Shown: positions 21,136-45,259 of the stretch, one piece after another
How the letters are laid out: every line of letters begins with the position of its first letter
Position numbering within the stretch: position 1 is the stretch's first letter
Assembly: GCA_018675335.1 (NCBI GenBank)
Contig: JABGYH010000001.1
Coordinates: 104,456-162,907, forward strand
Length of the DNA stretch: 58,452 nt
Direction: 5' to 3'
Source of the DNA: Candidatus Woesearchaeota archaeon
Lineage (GTDB): Archaea; Nanobdellota; Nanobdellia; Woesearchaeales; UBA11576
The notes under the pieces: model-generated
What the model was told of the DNA's origin: nothing
Database searches by the model: none
Seen by the model: the letters and a program-made list of their open reading frames with translations, nothing else
Translations under genes and position numbers: made by a program

Positions 21136-21226
21136 TGCGCCGGCTGGGATTTGAACCCAGATAAGTGGCTGCCTTCTCAAATGAATGATTGGAAGGCCAC
21201 TGTCATAGCCATTAGACCACCGGCGC
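21136..21226 (-). tRNA. tRNA-Gly(UCC) with 19-nt intron
   Basis: On the minus strand the acceptor gcgccgg (21226-21220) pairs with ccggcgc (21143-21137), and the discriminator is A. Anticodon stem gtggc pairs with gccac. The anticodon tcc is at 21193-21191. The T arm is ctggg-ttcaaat-cccag. An intron of about 19 nt (21189-21171) splits the loop after position 37. In the precursor, gccttc and gaaggc form an extended helix, as expected for a bulge-helix-bulge splice site. A TATA box (ctttataaatg) lies ~30 nt upstream of the 5' end. Confidence 0.9.
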
Positions 21227-23836: not shown

Positions 23837-23847
23837 AACACCATATA

Positions 23848-23860
23848 GTGTAGATAATAC
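23848..23860. promoter_or_regulatory. candidate NrtR operator in the nrtR promoter
   Basis: The 13-mer gtgtagataatac has half sites gtgta and its near-inverse aatac. It sits between the TATA box (rc of atttatatat, 23861-23870) and the ATG at 23836. The position matches the operator-like 13-mers in the pncB and methyltransferase promoters, so binding would block transcription. Confidence 0.5.
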
Positions 23861-23999
23861 ATTTATATATGTTTTTATTTTAAAAATAAATATATTTTAA
23901 TTTAATAATAACCAGATTATAATTTAATTAAACCCGACAATCAAGCCCACTTAGTTAAATTTTAAAAAAAAATAAAAAAATAAAAAATTAAACTTGCAA

Positions 24000-24707: not shown

Positions 24708-24757
24708 TTTTATAACCCTCCAAAATAAGTCTAAATTAATTAAGTGTCATAGACAAA

Positions 24758-26733: not shown

Positions 26734-26824
26734 TTTTTTTACCTCACATCAGTCTTAAATAATTTTGAATAATAACTCATAAACCAAAATAATTCCAAAT
26801 ACTTCTAAACCAGTTCATTCAATT

Positions 26825-28411
26825 CTAAGTTTTTTCTCCAAACATTTTTTGCGAATATTTTTGTTGAGCGGATTTAATTTTTTCAGAAACAATTACTTTG
26901 TAAGGAATTGCACCTTTGAATCTCATATGTTCTTCTCGCATCAAACCTAAATGATATTCTCGAGTTTGTTGAATTTGAGTCATAGTTGGAAAATCATAAA
27001 CTTGTTTGCCACCTTCAACAAATTGAGTTGTTAATTTTAAAGCTTCAGAATCATCATCAGTCAAATAATCACAAACGTTTTCGCCAGCCATCAAAATTAG
27101 ATCTCGATCAGCCTTGCAATCTTTTTTTGAAATTACTCGATAAACTTCTAGTCTTCCCGGAAGAGTTGCTTTCGCAGGATTATTTTTTACAATTTTACAA
27201 ACATCAATTACACTTCCATCAACTTGTTCATCTCGCGCAGCTTTGTGAACCGGACCCGGCAATTTGTAAGGATTAACTAAATATGTGCCCATCAATAAAA
27301 TATCAATTGGAGCTTTTGCTTCCAAAAGTTCATGAACTTTATATCCTGTCAAATCATCAGAAACCATAATTTTTACAAAATCAAGCCCCAATTCATCAAG
27401 CCTGCCCCGCATATAATTTGATCTTTCTAAAGGATCCCCACTATCAGTTCGAACAGCAGCCTTACTCAAACCATATTTTTCAATCAAACTAATTGCAACT
27501 TCAAGTCCTTCTGTCGAATCAAAAGTATCAAGTAAAAAAGTAGGTCCTGGTTTTTTTTGTTCACCAGATTTTATTTTTTCATCGATTGTTTGTTGAGAAT
27601 CATTATTTTTTATTTCAAAATATGATCTTAATTGTTTTTCGAATGCTTCTTTGTCTCCTCCCGCATGAAGAACTGCAGAATGTCCCGCACTACCACCAAC
27701 AACATTTTCTAATTCAGGATATTCTAGTGCTAATTGTTCCAAAGAAGTTCCTTTAAATCCCCCAATAAGTGCCGCCCTTGATGCTGCAAGTGGAAAAATA
27801 CATCGTCGAGATCCACCTTCCAAAGTTAACATATCTTCTCGTCCAAATTCAACTAACATATTCCTAATATAACTAGCAGTCGTAGCAACCGCAGTTTGAT
27901 AACCTAGCTGACTTAAAATTATAGTTTCAGGAAATTGTGCTTGTTCAAATGTGCCATTCACACTCAACATAGGTTCATTTCCAAAAACAGGCACACCTTC
28001 AGGAATCCCATAAACATCCAAATCCAATTTTTTATTAGAATCAAGCTCAGTTATTGTTTCAGACGCAATACCTTTTCGTTCAAGCATAGATAATAATTCA
28101 TCAGAAGTTTCATAAGCGAGAATTCCCGCAATTGCTTGTTCTATACCTGCAACCATCAAATAATTATCTTGTTCAATTTGAAATGCTTCAAATTTTGCAC
28201 CTTCAATTTCCAAAGTTCTTTTTCCTACAACCTTGTGGTCTCGAAGTCCTCTTACTGCAACATTAAATGTGGATTTTCTTCTGCAATCATCTGCAACAAC
28301 TAACGTGTCAGCCATAGTTGTTTCATAATGATCTTTTGTTCCTGCAAGTATTCGAGGATCAATTCCCAACAAATTAGGTTGTCTTAATTTTAAATCTTGA
28401 TTATTTTTCAT
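26825..28411 (-). CDS. pncB: nicotinate phosphoribosyltransferase
   Basis: A 528-residue NAPRTase, which makes NaMN from nicotinate and PRPP. Family motifs include the conserved His region (SAGHSAVLHAGG near ~240), FLLDTFDSTEGLEVAI at ~292, AVRTDSGDPLERS at ~318 and VKIMVSDDLTGYKV at ~345. The Asp/Gly-rich pattern fits PncB better than NAMPT, and a nicotinamidase in the operon supports this. It is the first gene of a four-gene operon driven from a promoter ~280 bp upstream, leaving an unusually long leader. The ribosome site is GGGAG ~10 nt before the ATG. Confidence 0.88.
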   Translation of the reverse strand: MKNNQDLKLRQPNLLGIDPRILAGTKDHYETTMADTLVVADDCRRKSTFNVAVRGLRDHKVVGKRTLEIEGAKFEAFQIEQDNYLMVAGIEQAIAGILAYETSDELLSMLERKGIASETITELDSNKKLDLDVYGIPEGVPVFGNEPMLSVNGTFEQAQFPETIILSQLGYQTAVATTASYIRNMLVEFGREDMLTLEGGSRRCIFPLAASRAALIGGFKGTSLEQLALEYPELENVVGGSAGHSAVLHAGGDKEAFEKQLRSYFEIKNNDSQQTIDEKIKSGEQKKPGPTFLLDTFDSTEGLEVAISLIEKYGLSKAAVRTDSGDPLERSNYMRGRLDELGLDFVKIMVSDDLTGYKVHELLEAKAPIDILLMGTYLVNPYKLPGPVHKAARDEQVDGSVIDVCKIVKNNPAKATLPGRLEVYRVISKKDCKADRDLILMAGENVCDYLTDDDSEALKLTTQFVEGGKQVYDFPTMTQIQQTREYHLGLMREEHMRFKGAIPYKVIVSEKIKSAQQKYSQKMFGEKT

Positions 28412-28662
28412 TTTTTATATTCTCCCAAAATAGCTTTCGCTAGTTTGATTCACCATTCCAAGTTCATTCATTCAAACACGCAGTTTGTGTCTAAAACACA
28501 CTTAGTATTGGATAAAAAAAAGCACTTCAAACTTCTCGCACGAAAAACAGCCCCAAAAAACTGCCAAACGCACAAAAAAAGCTCAAAACGCTCTTTGTTA
28601 AATGCGAAATTGATTAAAAAACGCCAAAAACAACAATTAAAGACGTTTTATCTTCACTACCT
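28412..28662 (-). promoter_or_regulatory. ~250-nt untranslated leader of the pncB operon
   Basis: Between the predicted transcript start (~28663) and the pncB ATG lie about 250 nt with no substantial minus-strand ORF, in a genome where most leaders are absent or short. The leader RNA is richer in G than its surroundings and repeats GCGTTT-type elements (rc near 28550-28625). An 18-codon frame (28484 to 28428, starting MNELGMVNQ) ends just before the ribosome site. It could hold a leader peptide or RNA element; no known riboswitch is recognised. Confidence 0.4.
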
Positions 28663-28703
28663 CTTATTGTGTATTATACACTTACAACTATATAAACTTT
28701 TCG
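28663..28703 (-). promoter_or_regulatory. promoter-operator of the pncB-nadE-nadM-pncA operon
   Basis: Reading leftward there is a TATA box (tttatata, within 28690-28699), then the near-perfect palindrome gtgtattatacac (28669-28681) directly where the transcript should begin. The whole 41-bp block matches the block at 30895-30935 at 34 of 41 positions with no gaps. A protein bound there would block initiation; NrtR is the obvious candidate. Confidence 0.7.
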
Positions 28704-28739
28704 CCCATACAGAACATATTCAAAGAAAAAACACAAAAA

Positions 28740-28788
28740 AAAAATCAAAAAATCAAAAAATCAAAATCAAAAAATCAAAAAAAATACC
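28740..28788 (-). terminator. T-rich terminator region behind nadK
   Basis: Just after the nadK stop, the minus strand carries repeated T runs (GATTTTTT units, about five in 49 bp). Archaeal RNA polymerase terminates at such U-rich tracts. This would separate the nadK unit from the pncB promoter immediately downstream. Confidence 0.5.
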
Positions 28789-28792
28789 AATT

Positions 28793-29809
28793 TCAAAATT
28801 CTCTCGTTACTGGTTGATTCGCTTTACTCGCGTACCAATATATTTTTTGAGTGTCAAATCCTACAACTGGCAAAGGATGTGCAGATCTATATACTTTAAT
28901 TTGTCGATCCAATCCCAACTCATGAACTGTATCTGGATGATCCCCATCAATTGCAAGTGACGTACGAGGATTTTTTGATTTTACTTCAACATATTCTGCA
29001 TCCCTAACAATAAATCGCCTCGTTTTAATTCCCACATGAGATTGTCTAGGACCAAGACCTCTTGCAACAACATTAAATGCACAATCTTCAACAGACAATA
29101 CTTCTTCTAAATCTACACCCCCCATTTCCCAGTACGACCAACTACTTTGAGGAGTTGAAATAATAACTCCCGAACTTCTATGTTGCTCACAATAACCAGG
29201 CAAAATCACAGAGTAATCAGCAGTACTATGGCCAGATCTCCCAGTAATAGATATATCATTAAGAACTCTGTGAACTAAACCATTACGAGGATTCATAACT
29301 AATTTGCCATCAACTTCAACTTCAAGTCGCATCAAATCAACAATATCCAAATCACCTTCCAAAAATTTTGAAAATACTGCATCAAAATCTAATTGACTCA
29401 TCGCACAATAAAATCCTTCCGAACCATCAAACTGATTTAACTCAACCATTCTTTTATCAGTATTAACTCCAACCACAGGAGTATTTTTATTATATGCATT
29501 AACTTCAAGTACAGTTCCATCACCACCCAACGAAAAAACACAATCACTATCACAAATTAATTTAGAATTTAAATCTCCTCGATAAACTACAGTTGTTGAA
29601 AAACCACTTGATTCCAAACCACTGCGCACCACATCAATCATCCTATTTTGTTCATGACTACTCAGCAAAAGTTGTCTCAAATTATCAGGATCAGATAAAT
29701 ACGCAACAGTTACAGGATCATCTTTTTTCTCCCTCAACATCTCAAGCCTAGGTTTTTTGTATACCACCAATACATTTTTAATACTTAAATCTTTTAGTTT
29801 TCTCGACAT
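28793..29809 (-). CDS. nadK: NAD kinase
   Basis: A 338-residue ATP-NAD kinase that makes NADP. The GGDGT motif is in VFSLGGDGTVLEV at ~95-105, the NDI motif (NE/D equivalent) in VLNDISITG near 187, and the substrate loop in SSGVIISTPQSSWSY near 217. The N-terminus (~1-85) is a Rossmann-like domain with a helical extension. A GGTGA site precedes the ATG. It lies behind the methyltransferase whose promoter carries the same operator as pncB, so NADP formation may be controlled together with NAD salvage; a TATA-like tttataa at ~29870 could also give it its own promoter. Confidence 0.87.
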   Translation of the reverse strand: MSRKLKDLSIKNVLVVYKKPRLEMLREKKDDPVTVAYLSDPDNLRQLLLSSHEQNRMIDVVRSGLESSGFSTTVVYRGDLNSKLICDSDCVFSLGGDGTVLEVNAYNKNTPVVGVNTDKRMVELNQFDGSEGFYCAMSQLDFDAVFSKFLEGDLDIVDLMRLEVEVDGKLVMNPRNGLVHRVLNDISITGRSGHSTADYSVILPGYCEQHRSSGVIISTPQSSWSYWEMGGVDLEEVLSVEDCAFNVVARGLGPRQSHVGIKTRRFIVRDAEYVEVKSKNPRTSLAIDGDHPDTVHELGLDRQIKVYRSAHPLPVVGFDTQKIYWYASKANQPVTREF

Positions 29810-32221: not shown

Positions 32222-33250
32222 CTAAATATTCTCATCAACAATTTGTTTTAACATCTTAACTGCATTTACTGGATCAATACCATTACTTGTTTCTCCACTC
32301 AACATCAAACCATCCGCACCAGAAATTACTGCATAAGAAGTATCAATAACTTCAGATCTTGTTGGCCGAGCACTATACTGCATCGACTCTAATAATCCAG
32401 TTGCAACAATGACTGAAACTCCATAAGCCTTACAAGTTGACATAATTTTATTTTGATATCCCATAAATTTTTCAGGAGGCACTTCAACAAATAAATCTCC
32501 TCTTGCAAGCATAACGCTCACATCAATTCCCTCTTTTTGTGAATTAATAAGTATAGAACTTAAATTTGCAACACCAAAATAATCTTCAATTTTCACAATA
32601 ATTCCAGGAGAGTAATCAGTAACTCCTTTTTTTTGTTTTGATTCTTCAATAACTCCCATCAGTTTTTGAACATCAGAAAAACTTCTCACAAAACTCAATG
32701 CAAAATATTCTACACGATTTTCAACACCAAAATCGACTACTAATTCATCTTTTTTTGTTAAATTTTCTAAAGGAATATATTTTTCAGGAACATTAACTCC
32801 CATCATATTCCTTATTTCTCCCTCACCAGCATCATAAACTTCTAAACTTAAATGAGTGGGTGTAACTTTTATAACTTTAGTTTTAATAGTCCCATTTTCA
32901 AAATAAATTTCATCTCCTCTTTGAACTGCAGATCCAAAATCATGAGAAAAACTAACAGGTCCAGAATTAAAACCCACATTAATTCTTTGACCTAACTCAA
33001 CCGCATAAATTCCATTTGCATGAACTCTTAACTGAGTTCCTTTTAGATCCATCATCACAGAAACATCTTTTTCTTTTTCTTGACCAGCACGTTTCACATA
33101 ATCATATCTTTGCTGATATTCTTCAAGAGTTGCGTATGCAGTATTCATCCTCGCACAATTCATCCCATTTTCAACCAATTCTTCAAGAACACTCAAACTA
33201 TCAGTTGTTGTGCCTAAAGTACAGATAATTGCAGGTTTATTTTCATATAT
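32222..33250 (-). CDS. short pyruvate-kinase-like protein, start unresolved
   Basis: A pyruvate kinase TIM-barrel and B domain of ~340 residues without the usual C-terminal domain. Motifs: GMNCARMNTAY, MMDLKGTQLR, FALSFVRSFSDVQ, IIVKIEDYFGVANL, VMLARGDLFVEVP and ADGLMLSGETSNG. The first usual in-frame start is TTG 33196, which would remove KPAIICTLGTTTDS, a conserved first strand. In-frame coding continues to a stop at 33272, but only ATA (33250) or ATT (33256) are available; GGAGG at 33264-33260 fits ATA. An ATG at 33246 is in another frame. Last gene of the ubiquitin-like operon. It may have lost metabolic activity. Confidence 0.7.
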   Translation of the reverse strand: MYENKPAIICTLGTTTDSLSVLEELVENGMNCARMNTAYATLEEYQQRYDYVKRAGQEKEKDVSVMMDLKGTQLRVHANGIYAVELGQRINVGFNSGPVSFSHDFGSAVQRGDEIYFENGTIKTKVIKVTPTHLSLEVYDAGEGEIRNMMGVNVPEKYIPLENLTKKDELVVDFGVENRVEYFALSFVRSFSDVQKLMGVIEESKQKKGVTDYSPGIIVKIEDYFGVANLSSILINSQKEGIDVSVMLARGDLFVEVPPEKFMGYQNKIMSTCKAYGVSVIVATGLLESMQYSARPTRSEVIDTSYAVISGADGLMLSGETSNGIDPVNAVKMLKQIVDENI

Positions 33251-33331
33251 TTTAATCCGCCTCCACTTGTTTCAAATAAATTAAACTTGGTTCAAATGAA
33301 TATCAAATTATTTCAACTAAATTTAAATTAG

Positions 33332-34282
33332 CTATTGTATTAATTGTTTAAGGAAACCCGAATAATTTTGTTGAGCATATTTACGAAGTCCAAACTCATC
33401 TAAAACTTCATGAATTTGTTCTTTTTGTTGTGATTCAATTCCCACCGTTGCAGCAGAAATAACTTTATGTTCTAATTCTTTTGGTAGTACTAGTCCAACT
33501 CCACCATTATAAGCCCCCACTTGATTTAGTTCGCTCCTCGCATTTTGAACAATACTTACCGATACTAAAGTTAAATCAATTCCGCATCCTTTGTATAATT
33601 TCATAACTCTTTTTTTATTCACTCTCACAACTTCAACTTGTGAACTTTCTTCAGCCAATCCCAACAAATCATCCAAAGTAACAATGCCCATTTGTTTCAT
33701 TATAGGAAGTTTTGTTTCACTTCTTATTTTTTCAAAACTTCCCCCCTGAATTGGAAACGTTTTAGAATAATCTGCCCAAAATTCAAGTCCTCCTTCTGAA
33801 TAAAGATATTGTTTAATTTTTAATTTATCATCTCGAACTTTAACATTAAATTCAGCAATTCCCTCATACGCCAAATAGACATCCTCGCCAGAAACAAGAT
33901 TATAATCAGGTAATGCTAATAATTTATCTGCAATTTCACAATCAATTTCTTCAAAAGTTCTCCATTCCCAAACAGGTGCGGCCTCTGAAGAAATAATTGG
34001 CTTAACTTGTTTTGAAACTACTTTAGAGATTGATTTATCAAGAGGTAATAGCTCTTTAGGTAATTGAATGTTTGCAACTTTTACTTCAACAGGTATGACT
34101 TCTGCTTCTAACGCTTGAGTAATCTGAGCATCATCAGAAACAAATGTTTGAGGAACATAAGCTAAATGACCACTATCAGTTATTGTTGCTTTTGCGCCTG
34201 CTCGTTGCATATGATCTGGAATACTTGACGTAACAATAATTCTTCGTCCAGTTTTTCGTCTTTTATTTTTACGATTACCCAT
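33332..34282 (-). CDS. unknown protein of the ubiquitin-like operon
   Basis: About 316 residues; ATG 34282 is preferred to 34288 because GAGGGG lies 6 nt upstream of it. A basic tail opens the protein (MGNRKNKRRKTGRR). The middle alternates strands and charged turns (AEFNVKVRDDKLKIKQYLYSEGG, FWADYSKTFPI), faintly like CYTH or triphosphate-tunnel proteins, but no diagnostic ExExK motif is present. A C-terminal helical part ends LRKYAQQNYSGFLKQLIQ. No family is assigned. It lies between the second NadM and the pyruvate-kinase-like gene in the same direction. Confidence 0.6.
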   Translation of the reverse strand: MGNRKNKRRKTGRRIIVTSSIPDHMQRAGAKATITDSGHLAYVPQTFVSDDAQITQALEAEVIPVEVKVANIQLPKELLPLDKSISKVVSKQVKPIISSEAAPVWEWRTFEEIDCEIADKLLALPDYNLVSGEDVYLAYEGIAEFNVKVRDDKLKIKQYLYSEGGLEFWADYSKTFPIQGGSFEKIRSETKLPIMKQMGIVTLDDLLGLAEESSQVEVVRVNKKRVMKLYKGCGIDLTLVSVSIVQNARSELNQVGAYNGGVGLVLPKELEHKVISAATVGIESQQKEQIHEVLDEFGLRKYAQQNYSGFLKQLIQ

Positions 34283-34312
34283 ATTCATCCCCTCACAAAC
34301 TACTTAGACAGC

Positions 34313-34993
34313 TTAGTCACCAATTTGTTTCCGAATATCTTTTTCACCAAATAAATCTGCATAACACGCAATTCCTAATTTACGCTGCATTGCATGAACT
34401 TCATCAATTTCTTCTGCATGCTCTGCATAAAATTCTCTTAAAATTCGTGATAAATCTCTTTCACGAACAACTTCCACAACTCCTTTTGGAACATATTGTG
34501 AAAAATCATCTCCATATGCAATCATTTCTCTAATTATCTGCGCATGAAATTTATCTTTAATAGGTATGCCTCTTGATTCAATTCCTCTTTCTTCAAAAAG
34601 ATCTCTTTCTCGTGCAGTATTTGAAAAAAATACATGAAATTCAGGATTTGCATGAAACACACTCGCAATCCAACTTGGACAATAATGTTGATCTTGCAAT
34701 GCAATTATTTTGTACGGCTTTGTTATCTCACCTTGTAACGATCGATCGACCAGAGCTTTTCTTTCTTCATATGAAAAAGGATTTATAATCCATGGCGCTT
34801 CAAAACTTTTGTTAGTTCTACTGTATTGTGAACTTCCAATATTAATCAAAATTTCATCGATATCTGGTTCTTGATCAATATGTTTTAACACATGTAAATG
34901 TCCATTATGAAGAATTTGAAACCTTCCTAAATACAATCCTCGTCTAATTCCCCCATTCTGAGAATTTCTTGTTCTGTTAGACCCATAATTCAT
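34313..34993 (-). CDS. second NMN adenylyltransferase (archaeal NadM type)
   Basis: About 226 residues from ATG 34993, chosen for the GGTGAGGT site 5-6 nt upstream. It has the archaeal NadM layout: GLYLGRFQILHNGHLHVL (HxGH) near residue 20, EILINIGSSQYSRTNKS and INPFSYEERKALVDRSL; the C-terminal ISSTxIR motif is altered to FHAQIIREM. It overlaps the kinase stop by 17 nt. A second NadM outside the NrtR-regulated set, inside a conjugation-like operon, suggests a special use of nicotinamide or adenylate nucleotides there. The altered ISST motif leaves activity uncertain. Confidence 0.78.
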   Translation of the reverse strand: MNYGSNRTRNSQNGGIRRGLYLGRFQILHNGHLHVLKHIDQEPDIDEILINIGSSQYSRTNKSFEAPWIINPFSYEERKALVDRSLQGEITKPYKIIALQDQHYCPSWIASVFHANPEFHVFFSNTARERDLFEERGIESRGIPIKDKFHAQIIREMIAYGDDFSQYVPKGVVEVVRERDLSRILREFYAEHAEEIDEVHAMQRKLGIACYADLFGEKDIRKQIGD

Positions 34994-36674
34994 TTTTAAC
35001 CTCACCACCACAATTTAATTTAGAAACATGTTCTTGCGAAATTTGATAATCCCCCAATCTTCTACTCACGTCCTGCATAGATATTCGCTCAGTTGGATTT
35101 TTAATAAGCATGTCACCAATTAAATCACCTAATTCTTCATACTCAACTAATTTATCACAATTTAGATTAGGTTCATTGTATGCGTTCGCCAAACCGTACA
35201 TAAGAACTTCACTTTCTCTATATGCATCTCCTTGTTTAAATTCAACTCGAGAAAAAGGATGTTCTCCAGTTAATAATTCATAAAAAAGAATACCTAATTG
35301 AAACACATCAGAATGTTTATAACTCTTAAATTCAAGAGCCATCTCTGGAGGAATATATTTAGGAGTTGATAATACCGATCTACAACAAAAACCAGAAGGC
35401 ACATGACCCTCAGAAGTTAAATCATTAGGTTCTAAAAGTCTTGACATTCCAAAGTCATACATAATAACATCTTCAATCGTGCCAGAAGAATCAGAAACAC
35501 AAATAAAATTTGTTGATTTGACATCATTGTAAACAATTCCTTCAGACCCTAAATAATCAATTGTATTTGCAATGGTAGTTATTATTTTAACAACTGACAT
35601 TAAATCTAATAATTCATTTTTGTGCGTATATTTCGATAAACAAGTCCCTTCTATAAATTTTAATCTAAGAAATTCAACACCTTCAATATCATAAGTTCCA
35701 AAATACCTGACAATATTAGGATTATCTACCCGTTCAAGTATTTCTTTTTCTTGACTATAACCTCCAACACGAGAAAAATCAAGATATTGTCTTAAATTTT
35801 CTTTGTAAACAACTGCAATTCCTTCTTCTTCAACCAAAAATATATTGCTTGCCAAAGGAAATAATTCATTAGAATCTCCTTTTTGTAATTGTTTTACTAT
35901 GCGTCGTTTAGATCTTGCAAGATCCCCCTCACTAAATGAATTAGCTAAAACTTGTTCTAAATTAGATCTTATGTCTCGTCTAGAAATATAGTTAACACGA
36001 TCATTCGCTATCTCGACTAAATCGGGTTTTACTACTCCCAACCAACCGAGTTCTTTAGATAATAATGCTTGTTTTGCATAATTTCGATTACCTTCTTGTT
36101 GCATTCTTAATAATGTTTGTTTGACTGCATGTTCGCAAGGAATATTCAAATCAGCTTTTATTTGATTAAAAACTGCCAGATCAAGTTCATAACCTAAAAT
36201 TCCTTTATTCAAATTACTTGACTCACTTAATTTTTGCATTCGCATGTGAGGTATTGCACTTTCAACTAAAAATTGTTGATATTCAAAAGAACTCATCCAA
36301 TCCGGATGTTTACTTAATACTGATTTAACAACCCCAAAATCTCCTTTCCATTTTGCAATTTCAAAAACGCGAGTTTCAGAAAATTCACTATTAAACTTTC
36401 TTGCAACATCTAATGCTTCAGGCAGCGCAAACATCATCGAATATGCCAAACTAATAATTCCTCCAAAAGAACTTCGTTGATCTGAACTCAAAAAACTTCC
36501 TGCAACACCAATAATTTGATCCGCAGCAGATTCGAACAATTCACATTTTGCTTCCCCTCCCAGTTTTTTAGAATAAAGTTGAATTAAACTAACTAATTCA
36601 TTTTTTTCTAAAAATTCCTGAAATTTTTCTTGTTCTTTTATAGTTAATATCATTTTACCAATCAACCAATCCAT
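34977..36674 (-). CDS. eukaryotic-type protein kinase with helical N-terminal region
   Basis: 565 residues from ATG 36674; ATG 36653 is an alternative. Residues ~1-265 are helical, without a family I know. The kinase domain is at ~275-545: ATP-binding Lys291 in AVVYKEN, Glu in YSQEKEILERV, catalytic loop IVYNDVKSTN at 380-389 (HRD changed to YND but Asp384, Lys386 and Asn389 kept), DFG at 407-409 and PPE at 442-444, with DVFQLGILFYELLTGEHPF after. It should be active on Ser or Thr. The operon position suggests it regulates the conjugation proteins. Its C-terminus (CGGEVKNELWV) overlaps the next gene. Confidence 0.85.
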   Translation of the reverse strand: MDWLIGKMILTIKEQEKFQEFLEKNELVSLIQLYSKKLGGEAKCELFESAADQIIGVAGSFLSSDQRSSFGGIISLAYSMMFALPEALDVARKFNSEFSETRVFEIAKWKGDFGVVKSVLSKHPDWMSSFEYQQFLVESAIPHMRMQKLSESSNLNKGILGYELDLAVFNQIKADLNIPCEHAVKQTLLRMQQEGNRNYAKQALLSKELGWLGVVKPDLVEIANDRVNYISRRDIRSNLEQVLANSFSEGDLARSKRRIVKQLQKGDSNELFPLASNIFLVEEEGIAVVYKENLRQYLDFSRVGGYSQEKEILERVDNPNIVRYFGTYDIEGVEFLRLKFIEGTCLSKYTHKNELLDLMSVVKIITTIANTIDYLGSEGIVYNDVKSTNFICVSDSSGTIEDVIMYDFGMSRLLEPNDLTSEGHVPSGFCCRSVLSTPKYIPPEMALEFKSYKHSDVFQLGILFYELLTGEHPFSRVEFKQGDAYRESEVLMYGLANAYNEPNLNCDKLVEYEELGDLIGDMLIKNPTERISMQDVSRRLGDYQISQEHVSKLNCGGEVKNELWV

Positions 36675-36730
36675 AAAAATATTAATTCATCAAATTATCA
36701 AATCAACATTTAACCAAATTATTATTTTAG

Positions 36731-37627
36731 TTAAATTGCAGGGCGTTGCCTACCCGGATAATTTGTTTGTAAATTAGCAATATAATTATTTACTTCTCGA
36801 GCATTTGTTTTTTGACCTAAGACTTCAATTGCAGCAACACTTGCTTCAAAATATTTTTGTTCGTGAAGTAATTCAAACACACTTATTTTTTCATCATATT
36901 CTAAAAATCCAACAATTGAATCAATAAACAACAATGCTTTAAGATCATAATTTCCAGTAACTCTTTCAAGCTCTTTTTTTGTTTCGCGATGTTCAAATAA
37001 CCCATAGACTAACTTGCCTAATTCATGATACGTCGGACTTACAAATGTTAAAATACCATATGAATCTTCAACTTGAGTATTTTTTTGATTAAATCTTCGT
37101 TTATCATAGCGGTAATCCACAGTTCCTTTCAAAATAAGTCGCTCTTCAAGCAAGGAATCAAATTTAATCGAACCATACTTAACAAGTATTTCAAGATCTG
37201 GATCTAAAAATTGATCTCTTTGTTCTAATCGGCGTTCAAACTCTTGATATGTTTGACAGACATCCTTGTTGTTAAGCAGAATAGATGTTAAAAAATCAAT
37301 AAATCCAATTCCTTTAAAATAATCCTCTCGCGTAACAACTATTCTTTCTCTTAATATTTCTTCACTCACTAATTTATGTAAAAATAATGTTTGTAATGGA
37401 TCAAAATTTATTCTATAAGTTCTATTAGAAATATCTGGAAATTGTTGTAACAACCATCCTACACGTTTTGTTAAATCAGACGATAAATGTGTTGTTAAAT
37501 CCACATCACAAACATTAGTTCTATGATATGATTCCTTGATTCCTTGAATCAAATCTGAAAAATCTTCTCCTGAATCAGTTTGTCTCCCAGTTATTTGTTG
37601 TCGTGTTTGTTCTGTTATATCAACCAT
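36731..37627 (-). CDS. unknown protein of the ubiquitin-like operon
   Basis: A 298-residue soluble protein lying 13 bp after the E1 gene, with GGGTGA 6 nt before the ATG. It is mostly helical by appearance. There is a mixed segment at ~165-215 (LILKGTVDYRYDKRRFN, GILTFVSPTYHELGKLVYGLF) and a C-terminal helical hairpin (ISVFELLHEQKYFEASVAAIEVLG). There is no Cys pair pattern of a RING or other zinc E3. I cannot assign a family. Its fixed place between E1 and kinase suggests an adaptor or substrate-recognition role, which is only inference. Confidence 0.6.
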   Translation of the reverse strand: MVDITEQTRQQITGRQTDSGEDFSDLIQGIKESYHRTNVCDVDLTTHLSSDLTKRVGWLLQQFPDISNRTYRINFDPLQTLFLHKLVSEEILRERIVVTREDYFKGIGFIDFLTSILLNNKDVCQTYQEFERRLEQRDQFLDPDLEILVKYGSIKFDSLLEERLILKGTVDYRYDKRRFNQKNTQVEDSYGILTFVSPTYHELGKLVYGLFEHRETKKELERVTGNYDLKALLFIDSIVGFLEYDEKISVFELLHEQKYFEASVAAIEVLGQKTNAREVNNYIANLQTNYPGRQRPAI

Positions 37628-37640
37628 TCAATCACCCTTA

Positions 37641-39203
37641 TCACACATAAAGATATGCCATTTTCTCCATCCAACTCCCAATCTTTTCTTCGTTGTGATG
37701 GCAACTACAAGATTGGGCAGCAGGCAGAGATCCTATTCTGAAATCATCTTGTGAAATATATTTGAGAATTTTATTTGAAGCAGGACCGTATTTATCTGGT
37801 CGAAGAACACATCTTGCTTCGCCAACAATCATCCCACCGATTATTTGATTTGAAGTAATAACACTTGGTTGTGCTGCAAGAATACAACTTTGTGGTGCGT
37901 GTGCAGAAATTGCTAATTTATCAATATCAACTTTACAATCCAAGCATGCTGTTTGTCCAGGTATACTTACCACTACTTGGCCACTATTGTACCTAGTACC
38001 CCCACTAATTAAAGGAATGCCATATTTAGTAGAATAATAATTAAGAAGTGCTCGTGCTTTATTATTATCAACAGTATCAATCATCAAATCTAATTCAGAA
38101 AACGCCTCCCCTGATGAAAAATAATGTTCGCTTGCAGGAGTTAATCGTTCAGACATAATTTCGACTTCAAGATTAGGATTTATTCTTTGTAATCGTTCAG
38201 CCAAAGTAGTTGCTTTTAATCTGCCAACTGCATCATAAAACAAAACTTGTCGATTTAAATTAGTTTGTTCAATATCATCATCATCAATCATAATTAATTT
38301 ACCAATATTGTTTAATGCTAGTTCAAGTCCGGCAAAATTTCCTAATGCTCCCGCACCGACCATTAAAACTGTTTTATCTTTAAAATCATCAGGTTCACTC
38401 AAGAATTCAAAATCAACATCAGATTTAAATCGATCTAATGAATTTAAATTATAAATAAGAATATCTTCTATTGTTTTTTCTCCATTTATAGGCATGAGTT
38501 TTTTTCTAGCCTCTTCTACTGCAAGTGCACTCATAACAGAACTAAGAATGCTACTTTGTTTTTGTCCAGTAAATTCTGCAAACAAAATATTTTCCAAATA
38601 TCTTTGTTGATCCCCTGAAGATCGTTGAGTTATTGGATCATAAACTCCAAGTTTAGATCTAGTTTCAGAACAAGACGCACTTACAACAGGAATTCCTTGT
38701 CTAATTCCATATTCAATTAAATTAAATTTTGAATAAGGATTATTTGTCGTATCAATAATCACTGACGGGGCACTTATTAAATTAAGATTTTGTGATTTGT
38801 CAAGTCTTAAATTAATTCCCGTAACCTTAACTTCAGGATTTATTCTGGATACGAAATTTGCAATTAAATCAACTTTAGTTCCTTGAGAAAAATAACTAAA
38901 TCCTTTAGAAAAATCTTTTTCAGAATTGGCAACATCCAATACATCAACACTTCCAGGACCAAATAATTCAATATTTCCAAAACCAAGTGCAGCAGCAGTT
39001 AATGCAGTATAATTTGCTAGTACTCCAGAACCAACAATAATTAATTTAGAATTTGTAAGTGCTGATTGATCCCACCCTCTAATCAATTCTTGCCTATCAT
39101 ATCTGCTAATTCCAGTTTGTAGTCCCTCTCCCTCGCCAGATTGTCTTGATTGTCCTGTTTGACGAAATTGAGGCTCAACTTGTCTTGATGATCTTATAAC
39201 CAT
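37641..39203 (-). CDS. E1-like activating enzyme with tandem ThiF domains (degenerate + active)
   Basis: 520 residues. Domain one (~34-250) opens SRYDRQELI and has a GSGVLANYTAL nucleotide loop but lacks the Arg-containing NLNRQ segment, so it looks inactive. Domain two (~275-480) has MVGAGALGNF (281-290), DDDDIEQTNLNRQ (307-319), DTVDNNKAR, zinc-type CLDC (420-423) paired with CSC (499-501), and Cys440 (PQSCIL) at the place of the conserved thioester-region Cys. The inactive-plus-active order resembles UBA1. It should adenylate the C-terminal glycine of a ubiquitin-like protein. It begins 1 nt after the JAB stop. Confidence 0.85.
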   Translation of the reverse strand: MVIRSSRQVEPQFRQTGQSRQSGEGEGLQTGISRYDRQELIRGWDQSALTNSKLIIVGSGVLANYTALTAAALGFGNIELFGPGSVDVLDVANSEKDFSKGFSYFSQGTKVDLIANFVSRINPEVKVTGINLRLDKSQNLNLISAPSVIIDTTNNPYSKFNLIEYGIRQGIPVVSASCSETRSKLGVYDPITQRSSGDQQRYLENILFAEFTGQKQSSILSSVMSALAVEEARKKLMPINGEKTIEDILIYNLNSLDRFKSDVDFEFLSEPDDFKDKTVLMVGAGALGNFAGLELALNNIGKLIMIDDDDIEQTNLNRQVLFYDAVGRLKATTLAERLQRINPNLEVEIMSERLTPASEHYFSSGEAFSELDLMIDTVDNNKARALLNYYSTKYGIPLISGGTRYNSGQVVVSIPGQTACLDCKVDIDKLAISAHAPQSCILAAQPSVITSNQIIGGMIVGEARCVLRPDKYGPASNKILKYISQDDFRIGSLPAAQSCSCHHNEEKIGSWMEKMAYLYV

Positions 39204-39204
39204 C

Positions 39205-41166
39205 CTAAGTTCCCCCCCCCACTAATTTAGCACTAGATCCCACATCTGAATTTCCAGCACCAGAATTATTTTGGAAATATTTTCTAAGTAATGATTTAAA
39301 TGGACTCGCAGCACTAGAAGAATTTGGTTCAATCTCAGAAGATAAAGTTTCTTCACAAACTGGAGTTACAACATAAGAACTATCTTGATATTTTTTTTGT
39401 TGTTCAATTCTTAAATTTTCATCTGTACTACCAACAAATTTTGAATCAAAAAGAGGAATTAATTTTTGTTCAATAAACTCATCTGCAATTTCAGGTGTCT
39501 GATAAAATACCGCGGGAAATTGTTCTAAGAATCGATATAATCCCTGTTCATTTTCACTTAAAACTTGTTGAATACAAGAAGTTAAATCTTGAACAAAGTA
39601 ATTTGTTAGTTTAGTAATAATATTATATTTATCTTCTCTCAATATTAATTTCCCATTTGCATCCACAGGAGTTTCTAACTTATTTAAAACTGATTCTAAA
39701 GATCCAGGATTAACTCCCGCTTCTGCTAAATCTCCCCCCGCACAACGACTAAGAAAATTAAAAACTAATTTTCGGTAGGAATGCCCTTTTTCACAACCAT
39801 AATCTGCAAACAATTCCATCGAGTAATTAGTCATTGCTTTAATTCCTTCCTCAACAACATCAAATCTTGTTTGTAAATCATTTGCTTTTTGTTGATATTG
39901 TTCAACTAATTCGTCTTGTAACTCAGTTTTAGTTTTTTCAGATTTTTGAACAACTGAATTAAAATCAACCATAAACTGAACACACAACAATGCATTTAAT
40001 TCACCAAAACTCAAATAAGCATTTTCTGAATTTAATTTTTTAGAATCAAATCCACTCAAATATTCATAAACTTTATCTGATTGTTCTTCAAAATCCTCCC
40101 CTGCAACTTCTTGTAAGTTTCCCGCATCAGCAATTATTTTTAAAGCTTGAAAAGGAACAATAGGATTTCCTTTTTTAAATTTTTTAACACCTTTTCTATG
40201 TTTACCTTTGCAGTCATGATATTTTTGAGATGCACGATCAAACTTTTGGGTAATTGTTTTGTACGGATCTTTTTTCCGTTTTAAAAATCCAAACCATCCG
40301 GTTTCTTCATCAGAATCATCCGAGAAGTCATCATCAAACTCATTCGAAGAATATTTTCTCCCCCCAGATCCAAATCTATTTCCATAACCACCCCCATTTC
40401 GACCAATTCCAAAAACTATTTTACGCCTTGCATCTTTTTCAATATCAGACACATTAAATTCAACATCATCCTCAACTGATAAAACTTCAACTACTGGCTG
40501 AGTTGGAGAATTAACTCTGAAACGTCTATTAAGTGAATCAAATGTTTTAGTTATTTTTTCACGATAATATTGCCCATATTGATTAACCACAATGCTAAAC
40601 GCTAAGGGATCTCGTTCTGCTTTTTTGATTACTTGAGGATTTATTTTTTTGAAATCATCAACATCAAAACCAGATAAAGTGTATTCCCCCATAACAATCG
40701 TTTTATTTTCCCTATCAATCCTAAAATTACCTTCTTCATTTTTATAAAGAGTTCTTGGCGCAATTGAATGAAGCACATTAAGAAAATTTCGCTCATCAGT
40801 TCCTGAATGAAACGGACTCATAGATCCATGACTATGCCACCAACCAATTATTTCATATCCTAAGGGCTCTATTGTTTGTGATGCACTATAAACTCCTTCT
40901 TCAGTAACTCTTACATATGTTGAAACTGCTTGTTGATCTTCTGCAAATAAAATATCTACAATCAAATCATCAAGTGCATTTTTTTTCTTCAATAAATACC
41001 CGTAGCATTCCATTCCTCCTCCTGCAACTCGAGAAACAACTTTAGCATAAGTCATCATTTTATTAAATGCACCTTGAGTTATTTGTAAAGAATTTATTTG
41101 TGATTGTTGATTTGGTACTTCCCCTTGTGCGAGGAGTTCATCAATTTTCAAATCTACTTCTCCCAT
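39205..41166 (-). CDS. JAB/JAMM (MPN) isopeptidase with long helical C-terminus
   Basis: About 653 residues from ATG 41166 (GAAGGTGA 7 nt upstream); the in-frame ATG 41190 overlaps the previous stop. The JAMM zinc-protease motif is complete: Glu in GGGMECYGYL (residue 53), then HSHGSMSPFHSGTD (His111, His113, Ser121, Asp124). A Gly/Ser/Asp-rich linker (~245-295) with GWFGFLKRKKDP follows, then a large helical region to ~600 and a flexible tail ending KLVGGGT. JAMM proteases remove or mature ubiquitin-like proteins next to a Gly-Gly, and the neighbouring genes supply E1, E2-like and candidate substrate. The last Gly codons form a nine-G tract. Confidence 0.88.
   Translation of the reverse strand: MGEVDLKIDELLAQGEVPNQQSQINSLQITQGAFNKMMTYAKVVSRVAGGGMECYGYLLKKKNALDDLIVDILFAEDQQAVSTYVRVTEEGVYSASQTIEPLGYEIIGWWHSHGSMSPFHSGTDERNFLNVLHSIAPRTLYKNEEGNFRIDRENKTIVMGEYTLSGFDVDDFKKINPQVIKKAERDPLAFSIVVNQYGQYYREKITKTFDSLNRRFRVNSPTQPVVEVLSVEDDVEFNVSDIEKDARRKIVFGIGRNGGGYGNRFGSGGRKYSSNEFDDDFSDDSDEETGWFGFLKRKKDPYKTITQKFDRASQKYHDCKGKHRKGVKKFKKGNPIVPFQALKIIADAGNLQEVAGEDFEEQSDKVYEYLSGFDSKKLNSENAYLSFGELNALLCVQFMVDFNSVVQKSEKTKTELQDELVEQYQQKANDLQTRFDVVEEGIKAMTNYSMELFADYGCEKGHSYRKLVFNFLSRCAGGDLAEAGVNPGSLESVLNKLETPVDANGKLILREDKYNIITKLTNYFVQDLTSCIQQVLSENEQGLYRFLEQFPAVFYQTPEIADEFIEQKLIPLFDSKFVGSTDENLRIEQQKKYQDSSYVVTPVCEETLSSEIEPNSSSAASPFKSLLRKYFQNNSGAGNSDVGSSAKLVGGGT
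39212..39220 (-). promoter_or_regulatory. nine-G homopolymer at the JAB/E1 gene junction (possible slippage site)
   Basis: The minus strand reads GTG followed by eight more G, then AACTTAG (JAB stop) and G-ATG (E1 start). With eight G in the tract, the JAB frame would avoid its TAG and continue straight through the E1 ATG in frame, giving a JAB-E1 fusion. With ten it would end a few codons later. The tract also lies at ribosome-site distance from the E1 ATG. Confidence 0.6.
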
Positions 41167-41173
41167 TTTATTT

Positions 41174-42769
41174 TCACCTTCTAAAATCATTTAAACAAAT
41201 TAATTTTTGTCTCCTAACTGTTGAATCAGAAACTTTTTTATGACCAAATTGAGAATCACCTAATCTCCGATAAGGATTATTTCCAGTTCGATAACCCATC
41301 ATCAAAGTTTCTTGTGCTTTGGTAAGTAAAGTTAAAACACATTGTTCAGGTGAAAGCCGTCTTGCTCGATCAGTATTGTACGCACCCATACACAATGTTT
41401 GTTGCGAACCAGATCCAGATAAAAATGGATGTTCATAACTGTTCATGATAATTGGATTAGAAACTTTAAATTGATCTGATCGTCGATATCTACCATCCAG
41501 AGTAATTGTAACTCCTACTTTTCCAGGAGGAAATTTGTAATAATTTCCATTATGCGGACTTCTTAAAACATAAGATGGAGTTGTAATGTAAACATAATAG
41601 ACTCCATTAACTAATTCAAAACCTGCGCCATTTTTTTCATAATTTCTTAAATTTGCTATTTGTTCAAGATTTCTTTTTTCTTCCGCAACTTGTGCTAGTT
41701 GTCTTGATTGAAAACCTGAATCTCTAATAGCATCAAGCTTAACATGTTTTTCAAGTAATTTTTGATAATTTTCTTTAACTTGAGAATTGTCTTCAACATA
41801 TAATGGGATAAAAAAGGTTCCACCAAAATTTAACATCAAACTTCTTAATTTATTTTTAATTTTACTTCTTACTTTATGTTCGATATGACCAATATTATTT
41901 CCAATAAATTCATTGACTTCTTCAGGAGTTTGATCCTCTCTCAATCTTTGCACTCTTGAAAAAAAATCAGGAGCCATTTTATCTCTAAATTCACCTAAAT
42001 ATTCTTTTACAGTTAATAACTCATATAGGCCATCTTCAACCATAAGAAAATTCATTCCAGGAACAAGTTCAGTTGTTAAAATACTATTAAGACCATTAGT
42101 TCTCCTCCCTATTTGTGTCAACAATCGATCAGAAGAAGGTAATCTGCCACCCATTGCTTGCGAGATTAGTGCATCTAAATCTATGTTTTGACTACTAGTT
42201 TCAGCTCCAGAATATCTTGCATAATCTGAATTAATTTGTTGCATTAATTCTTGACGTATTCTTTCTGCTTGTTGTTCGACATCTCTTTGTTGTGCTCGGT
42301 TCAGTCTTGCGGTGCCTGTTCCAACCCCGACTAAATCTCGCAAGTTTCGGGCAGACAAATTTTCCTCAGTTTGTTGCGATGGATCTGAGCGTTCACCTGA
42401 ATCAATTGCCTGGTCTATTTGTGCATTAAGTTGAACAGAAGTAATTACTGGCAAAACATTATTAACTATCAAAGACAATATTTTATTTTGTTCTAATTGT
42501 TGTTCTACTGCTTCTCGAGATAAAAATTCAGTTCTAAGTGTTTGTTCAACATATGATTCTTTCAAAGAATGAAAAAATGAAGCATGGTGAGAAAAAAATA
42601 ATTCCTCGAGACTGGCAGGTGAAGAAATTTCTTCCAAACCATAATTTGTTTGTCCAATTCTAATAAAATTAGAATCACGTTCAGTCAAATTTCCTGCTTG
42701 ATACAACCTATTTCCAAATAACAAAAGAGGTGTCTCGAGTTGAAATAAATATGGGGTCGGAATAGTCAT
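41174..42769 (-). CDS. protein with C-terminal E2 (UBC)-like domain
   Basis: About 531 residues from ATG 42769 (GCGGTG 7 nt upstream; GTG 42778 also in frame). Residues ~60-380 are helical with coiled-coil stretches and a Ser/Gln-rich linker. The C-terminal ~140 residues look like an E2 core: strands VYYVYITT and VGVTITLDG after YKFPPGK, then SNPIIMNSYEHPFLSGSGSQQT-LCMG, with His447-Pro448 (E2 HP motif) and Cys460 in the active-cysteine position, then helix PEQCVLTLLTKAQETLMMGY. Sequence identity to known E2s is low, so this is a motif-based call. The place between the candidate modifier and JAB/E1 genes supports it. Confidence 0.62.
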   Translation of the reverse strand: MTIPTPYLFQLETPLLLFGNRLYQAGNLTERDSNFIRIGQTNYGLEEISSPASLEELFFSHHASFFHSLKESYVEQTLRTEFLSREAVEQQLEQNKILSLIVNNVLPVITSVQLNAQIDQAIDSGERSDPSQQTEENLSARNLRDLVGVGTGTARLNRAQQRDVEQQAERIRQELMQQINSDYARYSGAETSSQNIDLDALISQAMGGRLPSSDRLLTQIGRRTNGLNSILTTELVPGMNFLMVEDGLYELLTVKEYLGEFRDKMAPDFFSRVQRLREDQTPEEVNEFIGNNIGHIEHKVRSKIKNKLRSLMLNFGGTFFIPLYVEDNSQVKENYQKLLEKHVKLDAIRDSGFQSRQLAQVAEEKRNLEQIANLRNYEKNGAGFELVNGVYYVYITTPSYVLRSPHNGNYYKFPPGKVGVTITLDGRYRRSDQFKVSNPIIMNSYEHPFLSGSGSQQTLCMGAYNTDRARRLSPEQCVLTLLTKAQETLMMGYRTGNNPYRRLGDSQFGHKKVSDSTVRRQKLICLNDFRR

Positions 42770-42796
42770 TTTATGCACCGCTCATTTTAAAATGAT

Positions 42797-43333
42797 TCAG
42801 ACCCTTTCTTCGAGGCTCCTACCCCCTTCATCGTGCGATACAATTGCTATGTCGCAGAAATTTATTTTTGTTGATCCTGCTTCAGTTTGTCTATCTTTTT
42901 CTTGCAAGTAAGTGCTTAATTCATCAGTTTGCAATCGCTCGTTATGATAGTTGTAAAATTCATTAATGATTGCCCTGTAGTCTGGCGCTTGCATTCTTTC
43001 TTTTACTGCTTCTGCAACTGCAATTTCTTCTTTTGTTGCCAAAACCTCATCTTTAATTAAGTAATTTACTGCATCAATTAGTTTTCCAGTTTTTACTTCA
43101 TCAGGTAGTTTTTTTACAATTCTAGAAGGTGTAAGTCCTCCACCTAAAGCAACAATGGTTGGTAAATCTGGATCATATTGATTTAACGCAGGTTCGCTGC
43201 TTGTTGTTGGTGGTGCCGCAGATGTTCTTAATGGAACACTTGGTCGCGAACTTCCCCTGCTTGATTCTCCGCCAGAACCTCCAGAAAAACTCCGTCTCGG
43301 AGTATAACTTTCAGATGTGTCGTAACTTCCCAT
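42797..43333 (-). CDS. candidate ubiquitin-like protein precursor ending Gly-Gly plus tail
   Basis: 178 residues, AGAGGA 7 nt before the ATG. Residues 1-55 are a Ser/Gly/Pro-rich flexible leader. Residues ~56-171 could be a beta-grasp fold with an insert: a strand pair (LPTIVALGGG, SRIVKKLPDE), helix (TGKLIDAVNYLI), a helical insertion, and a last strand KINFCDIAIVSHDEGG. Gly170-Gly171 is followed by seven residues (RSLEERV), the layout of ubiquitin and Ubl precursors that a JAMM protease trims. The E2-like, JAB and E1 genes follow directly. The fold is inferred; no recognisable ubiquitin identity. Confidence 0.5.
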   Translation of the reverse strand: MGSYDTSESYTPRRSFSGGSGGESSRGSSRPSVPLRTSAAPPTTSSEPALNQYDPDLPTIVALGGGLTPSRIVKKLPDEVKTGKLIDAVNYLIKDEVLATKEEIAVAEAVKERMQAPDYRAIINEFYNYHNERLQTDELSTYLQEKDRQTEAGSTKINFCDIAIVSHDEGGRSLEERV

Positions 43334-43492
43334 TTTTTATTCCTCTACGTTTTGAGCCCGTCGGCAAATTTTATTTTTAATTTTCCTCAATTAACTATAG
43401 AGCTATCGCTAAGTTTGATGAATTGATTCTCTGTAATTTTCAAAATTGAGGGTTTAAAAAATTTGATTTAAAAAATATTAAAATATAATTGT

Positions 43493-43587
43493 AAACCTAA
43501 ATTACAAAGCTAACGCTAATTAAAACAATAATTCGCAAACCTAAATTACAAAGCTAATTTACAAAGCTAACGCTAATTAAAGCAATA
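43493..43587. repeat. imperfect tandem repeat
   Basis: The unit aaacctaaattacaaagcta continues into acgctaattaaaacaata (43493-43530) and recurs at 43537-43587. The second copy carries an internal duplication of acaaagctaa. It could be an operator array or replication slippage product. Confidence 0.7.
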
Positions 43588-44308: not shown

Positions 44309-45259
44309 ATGAATATCCGTAAATTAGTCAAATCAGGTCTCTCATCATACACCGTAGCACTACCAAAAGATTGGATTGACAAAAATCACCTAAAAAAAGG
44401 AGATATGATATACATCACAGAAACTCCCGATAATGAATTATCAATCAAACTTGACCCAAATAATAAAGAACAAATAAGAACTGAAGTAGTAATAAACATT
44501 GATGGCAAATCAGGACATTCAATTTATAGAGAAATAGTTTCAGTTTATTTAACTGAATTTCAAAGATTCATAATCAAAGGAACTAATATTCATAAACAAA
44601 TAAAAGAAATCAAAAAAATTGTGTCGTCACTCCCCGCACTAGAAGTTGTTGAAGAAAGTTTAACAAAAGTGGTTGCACGTAGTTTTCTAGACGTACACAA
44701 CATTTCAATTAAAGATTTAATTAGAAGAATCGATAATATCGTAAGAGCAATGTTACTCGATTTACAAAGTTTAATCAAAAGAGAAATTACCCACGACGTA
44801 ATAATTGAGAGAGATGAAGAAGTTAATAGACTATCATTTTTAGTTTTCAAAATTTTAAAATCTGCATTCCACCACCCAGATGTTATGAAAAGTTTAGACT
44901 TAACAGATTTAGAAGCAGTATCCCATTGGCAGCTAGTATTTCACTTAGAAAAAATGGGCGATGAAACTAAAAGAATTGCAAGAAACATAGGAGAAAATCC
45001 TAAAAGCATTAACAAAAAACAATTACAATCATTAATTGATACAATGTATAAAGGATATACTAATTGCCTAACTCTATTTTACAAAAAAGATTTGAACGGT
45101 TCAGATAATTTTTCAGCTAATCGTAAAAAAATATTCATCGAATGTGATAAATATTTTATAACCAATAGAAATATTGTAAACTCAGAAATATCAGGCAAGT
45201 TTAAAGGTATGACATCTCATTTAATTGACATAACTAAATTAGTTAGATTCTTACCATAA
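44309..45259 (+). CDS. AbrB-PhoU family (phosphate uptake) regulator
   Basis: A 316-residue archaeal-type fusion. Residues 1-50 are an AbrB/SpoVT DNA-binding domain (MNIRKLVKSGLSSYTVALPKDWIDKNHLKKGD). Two PhoU-like helical bundles follow (~95-200 and ~205-316), with PhoU-type acidic patches such as DEEVNRLSF and LEKMGDETKRIARNI. PhoU-domain proteins adjust phosphate transport and signalling; the AbrB domain makes this a likely transcription regulator. No phosphate transporter genes are in the window. A TATA box (tataaata, 44281-44288) at 25 nt marks a leaderless transcript. Confidence 0.88.
   Translation: MNIRKLVKSGLSSYTVALPKDWIDKNHLKKGDMIYITETPDNELSIKLDPNNKEQIRTEVVINIDGKSGHSIYREIVSVYLTEFQRFIIKGTNIHKQIKEIKKIVSSLPALEVVEESLTKVVARSFLDVHNISIKDLIRRIDNIVRAMLLDLQSLIKREITHDVIIERDEEVNRLSFLVFKILKSAFHHPDVMKSLDLTDLEAVSHWQLVFHLEKMGDETKRIARNIGENPKSINKKQLQSLIDTMYKGYTNCLTLFYKKDLNGSDNFSANRKKIFIECDKYFITNRNIVNSEISGKFKGMTSHLIDITKLVRFLP

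Follow-up and report, generated by a model that had tools for sequence, protein, structure and literature searches.

A 58,452-nucleotide stretch of the genome of a Candidatus Woesearchaeota archaeon (assembly GCA_018675335.1, contig JABGYH010000001.1, positions 104,456 to 162,907; hereafter the window) carries a compact operon of nine genes that encodes a candidate ubiquitin-like modifier (Ubl) with Gly-Gly near its C-terminus, an E2-like protein, a JAMM metalloprotease and a tandem E1, together with a eukaryotic-type kinase, a paralogue of the adenylyltransferase NadM, a truncated pyruvate kinase and two proteins without assigned function. The order of these genes is kept in relatives, and genes for the synthesis and salvage of nicotinamide adenine dinucleotide (NAD) lie beside them. 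The reading we favour, at a little better than even chances, is that the operon specifies a self-contained, reversible pathway of ubiquitin-like conjugation and deconjugation that acts on NAD metabolism. Bacteria and a small number of archaea are known to possess ubiquitin-like pathways with E1, E2 and JAMM components. Our literature search, with preprints and subscription journals outside its range so that an earlier description is possible, found none described in DPANN archaea, the group to which this archaeon belongs, and none tied to NAD metabolism.

All nine open reading frames are on the minus strand, running from 43333 down to 32222. They encode the candidate modifier (178 aa; 42797..43333), the E2-like protein (534 aa; 41174..42778), the JAMM/JAB metalloprotease (39205..41190), the tandem-ThiF E1 (520 aa; 37641..39203), the conserved protein u298, whose function is unassigned (36731..37627), the kinase (34977..36674), a NadM-type nicotinamide mononucleotide (NMN) adenylyltransferase paralogue (34313..35011), u318, likewise without assigned function (33332..34288), and a pyruvate kinase barrel protein (32222..33247). 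From the Ubl gene to u318, the intergenic gaps are 18, -17, 1, 13, 56, -35 and 24 bp, giving two overlaps. An earlier note, made from the sequence of the window alone, had described nine same-direction genes with gaps under about 60 bp and two overlaps; the nine genes, seven of the gaps and both overlaps stand, but the last gap, between u318 and the pyruvate kinase gene, is larger than the others in the operon. The proteins were compared with Pfam, NCBIfam and PADLOC, structural models with Foldseek and the leader with Rfam. Significant Pfam matches were obtained for the pyruvate kinase barrel (231 bits), the NadM-type nucleotidyltransferase (32.6 bits; its match to the MJ0541 NadM has an E-value of 2.6e-20), the kinase (104.7 bits, 6.9e-30), the double ThiF (207 bits) and Prok-JAB (29.8 bits, 5.9e-07), and for none of the modifier, the E2-like protein, u298 and u318. 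The genome itself (G000), of which the window is part of contig 1, amounts to 1.71 Mb in 9 contigs and is 97% complete, as befits the small archaeon that had been supposed. Four other genomes enter the comparison repeatedly: G001, a congener, and G274, G280 and G024, which belong to other families of the same order.

The modifier comprises a disordered N-terminus of about 50 aa, a beta-grasp-like domain and the C-terminus INFCDIAIVSHDEGG-RSLEERV. Its Gly-Gly, at about 42821-42826 with a 7-residue tail beyond, is real and close to the C-terminus, as the first description had it. Orthologues occur in G001, G274, G280 and G024; four of the five sequences have GG, and the tail ends in an LE[EK]K-like sequence. 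The G024 protein (L070 4309-4881) has Cys-Gly before the tail where the others have Gly-Gly. Candidate modifiers of related operons close with a hydrophobic strand followed by Gly or Gly-Gly and a short stretch of further residues, and such ends fit trimming by the JAMM protease. The AF2 model, a poor one built on a two-sequence alignment (pLDDT 57), has the order strand-strand-helix-strand-helix-strand, which is that of ubiquitin, and its best match in the PDB is Urm1, with a probability of only 0.33. We regard a beta-grasp fold as likely.

The E2-like protein contains the motif HPFLSGSGSQQTLC, so that the HP-x...Cys arrangement reported for it is genuine. Its C-terminal part of about 158 aa (41174-41650) is UBC-like, with C463 as candidate catalytic cysteine, and its N-terminal part of about 370 aa is unassigned. 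This cysteine is invariant in 19 aligned homologues, in most of which HPx stands 10-15 residues before it; the pattern HP-x(7-11)-C was found in 11 of 22 E2-like proteins, against a mean of 0.27 after shuffling. The AF2 model of the C-terminal domain is again poor (pLDDT 56, two-sequence alignment). In the PDB, E2 enzymes take the first six places among its matches (probability up to 0.80, E-value 0.06), and in a viral library the two best are an E2-domain protein of a cyclic-oligonucleotide-based anti-phage signalling system (CBASS) and a viral E2. We regard a UBC fold, too, as likely. A profile of the family gave no meaningful alignment with an approximate human E2 sequence, and sequence profiles connected neither the E2-like domain nor the modifier to any known structure.

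The metal site of the JAMM protease is complete (E...HSH-x7-S-x2-D) and is kept in most homologues; it lies in a JAB domain at about 40756-41103, with a C-terminal extension of about 500 aa, and this intact motif and the Prok-JAB match bear out the original assignment. In the E1, the C-terminal half is of the active type, with GxGxxG, DxD, N-R, K and D-N motifs and conserved adenylation residues (GxG, D307, D309, N315, R318, K330, D372 and D379). It has zinc cysteines (C420, C423 and C499) and a cysteine in the crossover loop, C440, which we take to occupy the position of the catalytic cysteine of Uba5. The N-terminal half is of the inactive type; it keeps an RYxRQ arginine motif but not the ATP-site motifs. 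A tree of E1 halves has three clades, one of all N-terminal halves (support 100/99), one of all C-terminal halves (97/94) and one of single MoeB-type proteins (100/100), so that the tandem E1 has a single origin in this lineage. UBA1 also joins an inactive N-terminal and an active C-terminal half in one chain, and the arginine motif of its N-terminal half is present in the window E1. However, the inserted catalytic-cysteine domain and the UFD of UBA1 are not found in the window protein, whose 520 aa are filled by the two ThiF halves, and the NCBIfam Ube1 model gives 72.7 bits against a cut-off of 750. The description of this E1 as UBA1-like thus holds for its architecture, tandem halves of single origin, but not for the insert and UFD. 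A special closeness to eukaryotic UBA1 is not supported, as both halves match ThiF, MoeB and UBA1 with no particular leaning to UBA1.

Of the accessory proteins, the kinase has its catalytic domain at about residues 285-545, following an N-terminal region of about 280 aa; the conserved K, E, D and N residues, YxDxKxxN and DFG are kept, which with the Pkinase match confirms a eukaryotic-type enzyme. The operon NadM retains HxGH and the Asp and Trp of the NMN site, its ISGTxIR is replaced by a sequence of the FHAQ-x-[IV]R type, and it scores 99.4 with the NCBIfam NadM equivalog model (cut-off 181.2). It is indeed a second protein of the NadM type, since a NadM-Nudix protein is also encoded in the window (24758-25753). 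In G280, NadM and u318 form one fused protein; in G274 a second NadM domain is joined to the u318 homologue. u298 is seen only in this type of operon and has no Pfam, NCBIfam or credible PDB match. The pyruvate-kinase-like protein, recognized as such by its Pfam barrel match, lacks the C-terminal domain and keeps the catalytic residues; a full-length pyruvate kinase is encoded elsewhere in the genome. The first canonical in-frame start of its gene is a TTG at 33196. Homology, however, reaches a further 17 codons upstream, to 33247, and an ATG near that point, which has a good Shine-Dalgarno sequence, is one base out of frame (33196-33256), indicating either an assembly indel, possibly a homopolymer error, or an unusual start codon. 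No RING or zinc-finger domain was found by Pfam in the nine proteins, in agreement with the reported absence of a RING E3.

The order Ubl, E2, JAB, E1, u298, kinase, NadM, u318 and pyruvate kinase is kept whole in G001 (BLAST of the open reading frames of neighbouring genomes), with identities in the same order of 61, 46, 41, 58, 48, 43, 66, 42 and 60%. The order is also kept on contig L042 of G274, where NadM and the u318 homologue have changed places, and in G280, where these two are fused and there is one extra gene. The set is conserved in four genomes of three families, at identities of roughly 20-66%. Loss of the gene order in relatives had been set beforehand as a refuting test; the order was found in the congener and in two other families, so that this refutation fails, and its conservation across families shows that the arrangement is no accident. 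The kinase, NadM and pyruvate kinase genes belong to this operon type as conserved members and did not come to lie there by chance. A census with a profile of the window Ubl, covering 353 genomes of the order and a 371-genome sample of the phylum, gave five clear genomes in the order and two weak ones (G277, which has another gene set, and G316), and none outside the order in the phylum sample.

The core of the operon is more widespread than the operon type. A ThiF search found three further tandem-ThiF loci in G000, on contigs 3 and 7 (L009 2927-11647, L010 2039-10756 and L011 4135-12329), which with that of the window makes four tandem-E1 loci; all three adjoin E2-like genes, two have JAMM-motif genes and one has a clear candidate modifier. 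G001 has five tandem E1s in all, and tandem-E1 loci were found in 10 of 59 relatives and, by long matches, in 17 of 188 genomes of the class. The modifier-E2-JAB-E1 core recognized at the outset is upheld by its motifs, by the operon kept in four genomes and by the many further loci sharing it. Accessory genes vary among the operon types that share this core, and its recurrence with other accessory genes points to the Ubl-E2-JAB-E1 module as the evolving unit. Among the variants, the L011 operon has a transglutaminase-like protein and L010 has two consecutive E2-like genes. In one operon on L010 (96-1911, 5005-5592), three proteins that otherwise differ share a C-terminal R[RQ]D[ST][FY]L, perhaps a recognition tail. 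At the congener locus L046 (1525-11243) there are several Ubl-like genes, not all of them with Gly-Gly, and the E2-like genes are duplicated, one apparently being fused to a Ubl.

Beyond the 3' end of the operon, a cluster of NAD genes extends over 23087..29809 on the minus strand, with NrtR (23087), a nicotinamidase-type isochorismatase (24000), NadM-Nudix (24758), NadE (25750), nicotinate phosphoribosyltransferase (26825) and NAD kinase (28793; a weak Pfam match below the cut-off). Equivalents lie beside the operon in G001, G274 and G280. In G001 the same set follows the operon together with an ADP-ribosylglycohydrolase, a nucleoside hydrolase and a second NAD-kinase-like gene. In G274 NadE, Nudix, NadM, a second pyruvate-kinase-like gene and NadA come directly before it on the same strand. 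In G280 it is preceded by NAD-kinase-like genes, NadM-Nudix, NadE, nicotinamidase-type and phosphoribosyltransferase genes and followed by NrtR. The G024 locus is a 5-kb contig, on which the NAD neighbourhood cannot be judged. Genes of NAD synthesis or salvage thus flank the operon in all four testable genomes and in 0 of 18 other tandem-E1 loci (294 kb), where BLAST found no match to NAD genes and no NadE is listed nearby. Compared with its counterparts in G274 and G280, the NadE of G000 shows only about 25% identity, from which it follows that the link between operon and NAD genes survived deep divergence or arose more than once. The adjacent cluster gives the NadM-like gene of the operon a context; the earlier note had overlooked both this cluster and the paralogous operons elsewhere in the genome. 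A divergent PhoU/AbrB-type regulator (44309..45259, plus strand) is also close to the operon in all four genomes by gene-neighbourhood comparison. A shared promoter element, a TATA-like box followed by the palindrome AGTGTATAATACACA, occurs at 28681 and 30913 of the window (minus strand) and at L073 9605 (plus strand); the genes it precedes are those for the nicotinate phosphoribosyltransferase, a methyltransferase and, in G001, the nicotinamidase. This palindrome may be the NrtR operator. It was not found upstream of the Ubl operon, so that shared control by NrtR is not shown.

Just before the start codon of the Ubl gene is a candidate leader hairpin or pseudoknot (43342..43366, minus strand), in which the loop ACG pairs with CGT (CGC in some leaders) adjoining the Shine-Dalgarno sequence. 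Across five genomes 91% of cells are paired, compared with at most 46% in slid controls, and 3 of 7 pairs have two-sided changes. For four of the five leaders, thermodynamic folding did no better than it did for shuffled sequences, so that covariation, in the small number of five sequences, is what speaks for the pseudoknot; Rfam gave no match to the leader. We regard this putative RNA as a lead. The leader also contains a hairpin TAGC-GNNA-GCT (43401..43411, minus strand; copies at 43508-43518 and 43565-43575). The window has five copies of this hairpin where 0.08 would be expected; each of the five Ubl leaders contains it, and it also precedes the nicotinate phosphoribosyltransferase gene. 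Following the first leader hairpin is an AGCTCT that could pair with the Shine-Dalgarno sequence too. The hairpin was dismissed as a general genome-wide element, there being only a handful of copies per genome. Elsewhere, the window has a gene for a small protein with several tandem SLTEQN copies (49710-50153) and a tRNA gene by Rfam score (21135-21226), to which ARAGORN could not assign an anticodon.

In the pathway that we favour, the JAMM protease would trim the short tail of the modifier to expose Gly-Gly. The C-terminal half of the E1 would then adenylate the modifier, with the N-terminal half as a structural partner supplying an arginine, and the modifier would be taken onto C440 in the crossover loop. 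The E2-like protein would carry it on C463 and transfer it to lysines, and the JAMM protease would reverse the conjugation. The part of an E3 is probably played by the kinase and u298, which would gate or aim the transfer. As targets we think most likely the NadM-like protein together with u318, its partner, or else the truncated pyruvate kinase or the enzymes of the NAD cluster alongside. Of all this, the genes, their motifs, the kept order, the NAD linkage and the conservation of the leader are observed, while catalysis, both folds, the targets and the direction of control are inferred. In favour of the scheme count the gene set with its motifs, the order kept in relatives, the recurrence of the core, modifier tails that fit maturation by JAMM, the joining of NadM and u318 sequences in two genomes, the NAD linkage and the E2s at the head of both Foldseek lists. 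Several observations weigh against it. Sequence profiles tie neither the modifier to known Ubl families nor the E2-like protein to known E2 families, and the models of both are of low confidence. One orthologue of the modifier has Cys-Gly instead of Gly-Gly, and in other operon types several modifiers have just one Gly. The clear carriers of the operon type are only five genomes, two of them congeners, and the NAD linkage is positional, with an opposite-strand gene between the operon and the NAD genes in the window. A bolder proposal is that tandem-E1 pathways radiated in Nanoarchaeia, up to five per genome, and that the type in the window is devoted to NAD homeostasis, placing its modifier on NAD-making enzymes under control of the kinase while the leader pseudoknot senses an NAD-related metabolite or a regulatory protein; this we consider unlikely.

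Three other explanations were weighed. The operon could be a conflict or defence system like the bacterial Bil, CBASS or Bub systems. Its modifier would then be attached to proteins of an invader or to effectors, and the NAD genes would lie close by since defence consumes or restores NAD. PADLOC matches one half of the E1 to its CBASS E1-E2 models and the kinase to the defence kinase models PD-T4-6 and MAD6, the patchy spread and the several paralogous operons per genome would suit defence, and an ADP-ribosylglycohydrolase adjoins the operon in G001. However, PADLOC reports no complete system, and what it matches are ThiF and kinase domains of a generic kind. Neither integrase nor phage nor defence genes were recognized adjoining the operon, and the gene order has been kept over long divergence beside NAD biosynthesis genes; we judge a role in defence improbable, slightly more so than the radiation just outlined. 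A little less credence still is given to the modifier being a sulphur carrier, on which the E1 would form a C-terminal thiocarboxylate after JAMM trimming, the sulphur then entering a cofactor, such as a modified nicotinamide, that the NadM-like enzyme builds. E1s of the ThiS/MoaD type do this, JAB, E1 and Ubl sets occur in biosynthetic clusters (PMC1779556), and the NadM paralogue keeps its NMN site with a changed motif. Sulphur transfer, however, needs no dedicated E2-like protein with an invariant cysteine and E2-like fold matches, and Pfam finds no cysteine desulphurase or rhodanese in the operon.

Least probable, in our view, is that the Ubl operon is real and its NAD neighbours incidental, the accessory genes serving an unrelated task. 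The opposite-strand gene and a methyltransferase gene do stand between operon and NAD genes in the window, and the accessory genes of other operon types are wholly different. The association in 4 of 4 testable genomes against 0 of 18 control loci, despite NadE identities of about 25%, argues against coincidence.

Comparison with known systems shows where the operon in the window departs from each. Among the bacterial Ub/E1/E2/JAB operons classified as types 6a-6e (Iyer et al. 2006, PMC1779556), type 6d is closest, with separate modifier, E1, E2-like and JAB genes in one operon and no RING E3. No tandem E1, kinase, NadM or pyruvate kinase is described for any of these types, and the 6d E2s have no upstream His and a His after the Cys, whereas the window protein has HP-x before it (PMC1779556). 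The model of the PRTRC (type 6d) E1 gives 42.4 bits for the window E1 against a cut-off of 144.75, and no other PRTRC family is matched. The Caldiarchaeum subterraneum operon resembles that in the window as an archaeal set of modifier, E1, E2 and JAMM (PMC5654768, PMC6043591), but it includes a RING E3, and its ubiquitin and E2 are recognizable, which neither counterpart in the window is by sequence; the kinase, NadM and pyruvate kinase genes are additions relative to it. Type II CBASS Cap2 and BilABCD share the related E1 adenylation domain, seen in the PADLOC E1-E2 models, and the JAB partner. In CBASS the nucleotidyltransferase is the target of conjugation (PMC10097602). Cap2 fuses E2 and E1, whereas the window has separate genes and a tandem E1; Pfam finds no CD-NTase in the operon, the nucleotidyltransferase there being of the NadM type. 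The SAMP/UbaA/HvJAMM1 system of Haloferax provides an archaeal precedent for a modifier with a JAMM protease that regulates a metabolic enzyme (PMC4443979), but it has no E2 and its E1 has a single ThiF, unlike the E2-like protein and tandem E1 of the window; the UbaA model gives the window E1 114.8 bits against a cut-off of 450. The operon departs in a defining feature from each of PRTRC, CBASS, Caldiarchaeum-type operons, SAMP and UBA1. It is a variant of the prokaryotic ubiquitin-like operons.

If the favoured reading is right, genomes of around 2 Mb keep four or five such pathways in parallel, and one of these has a clear metabolic address, which makes it possible to guess its substrates and put them to the test. 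The UBA1-like division of the E1 between an inactive and an active half within one chain, with its single origin in this lineage, offers a prokaryotic comparison for the rise of the eukaryotic E1 layout.

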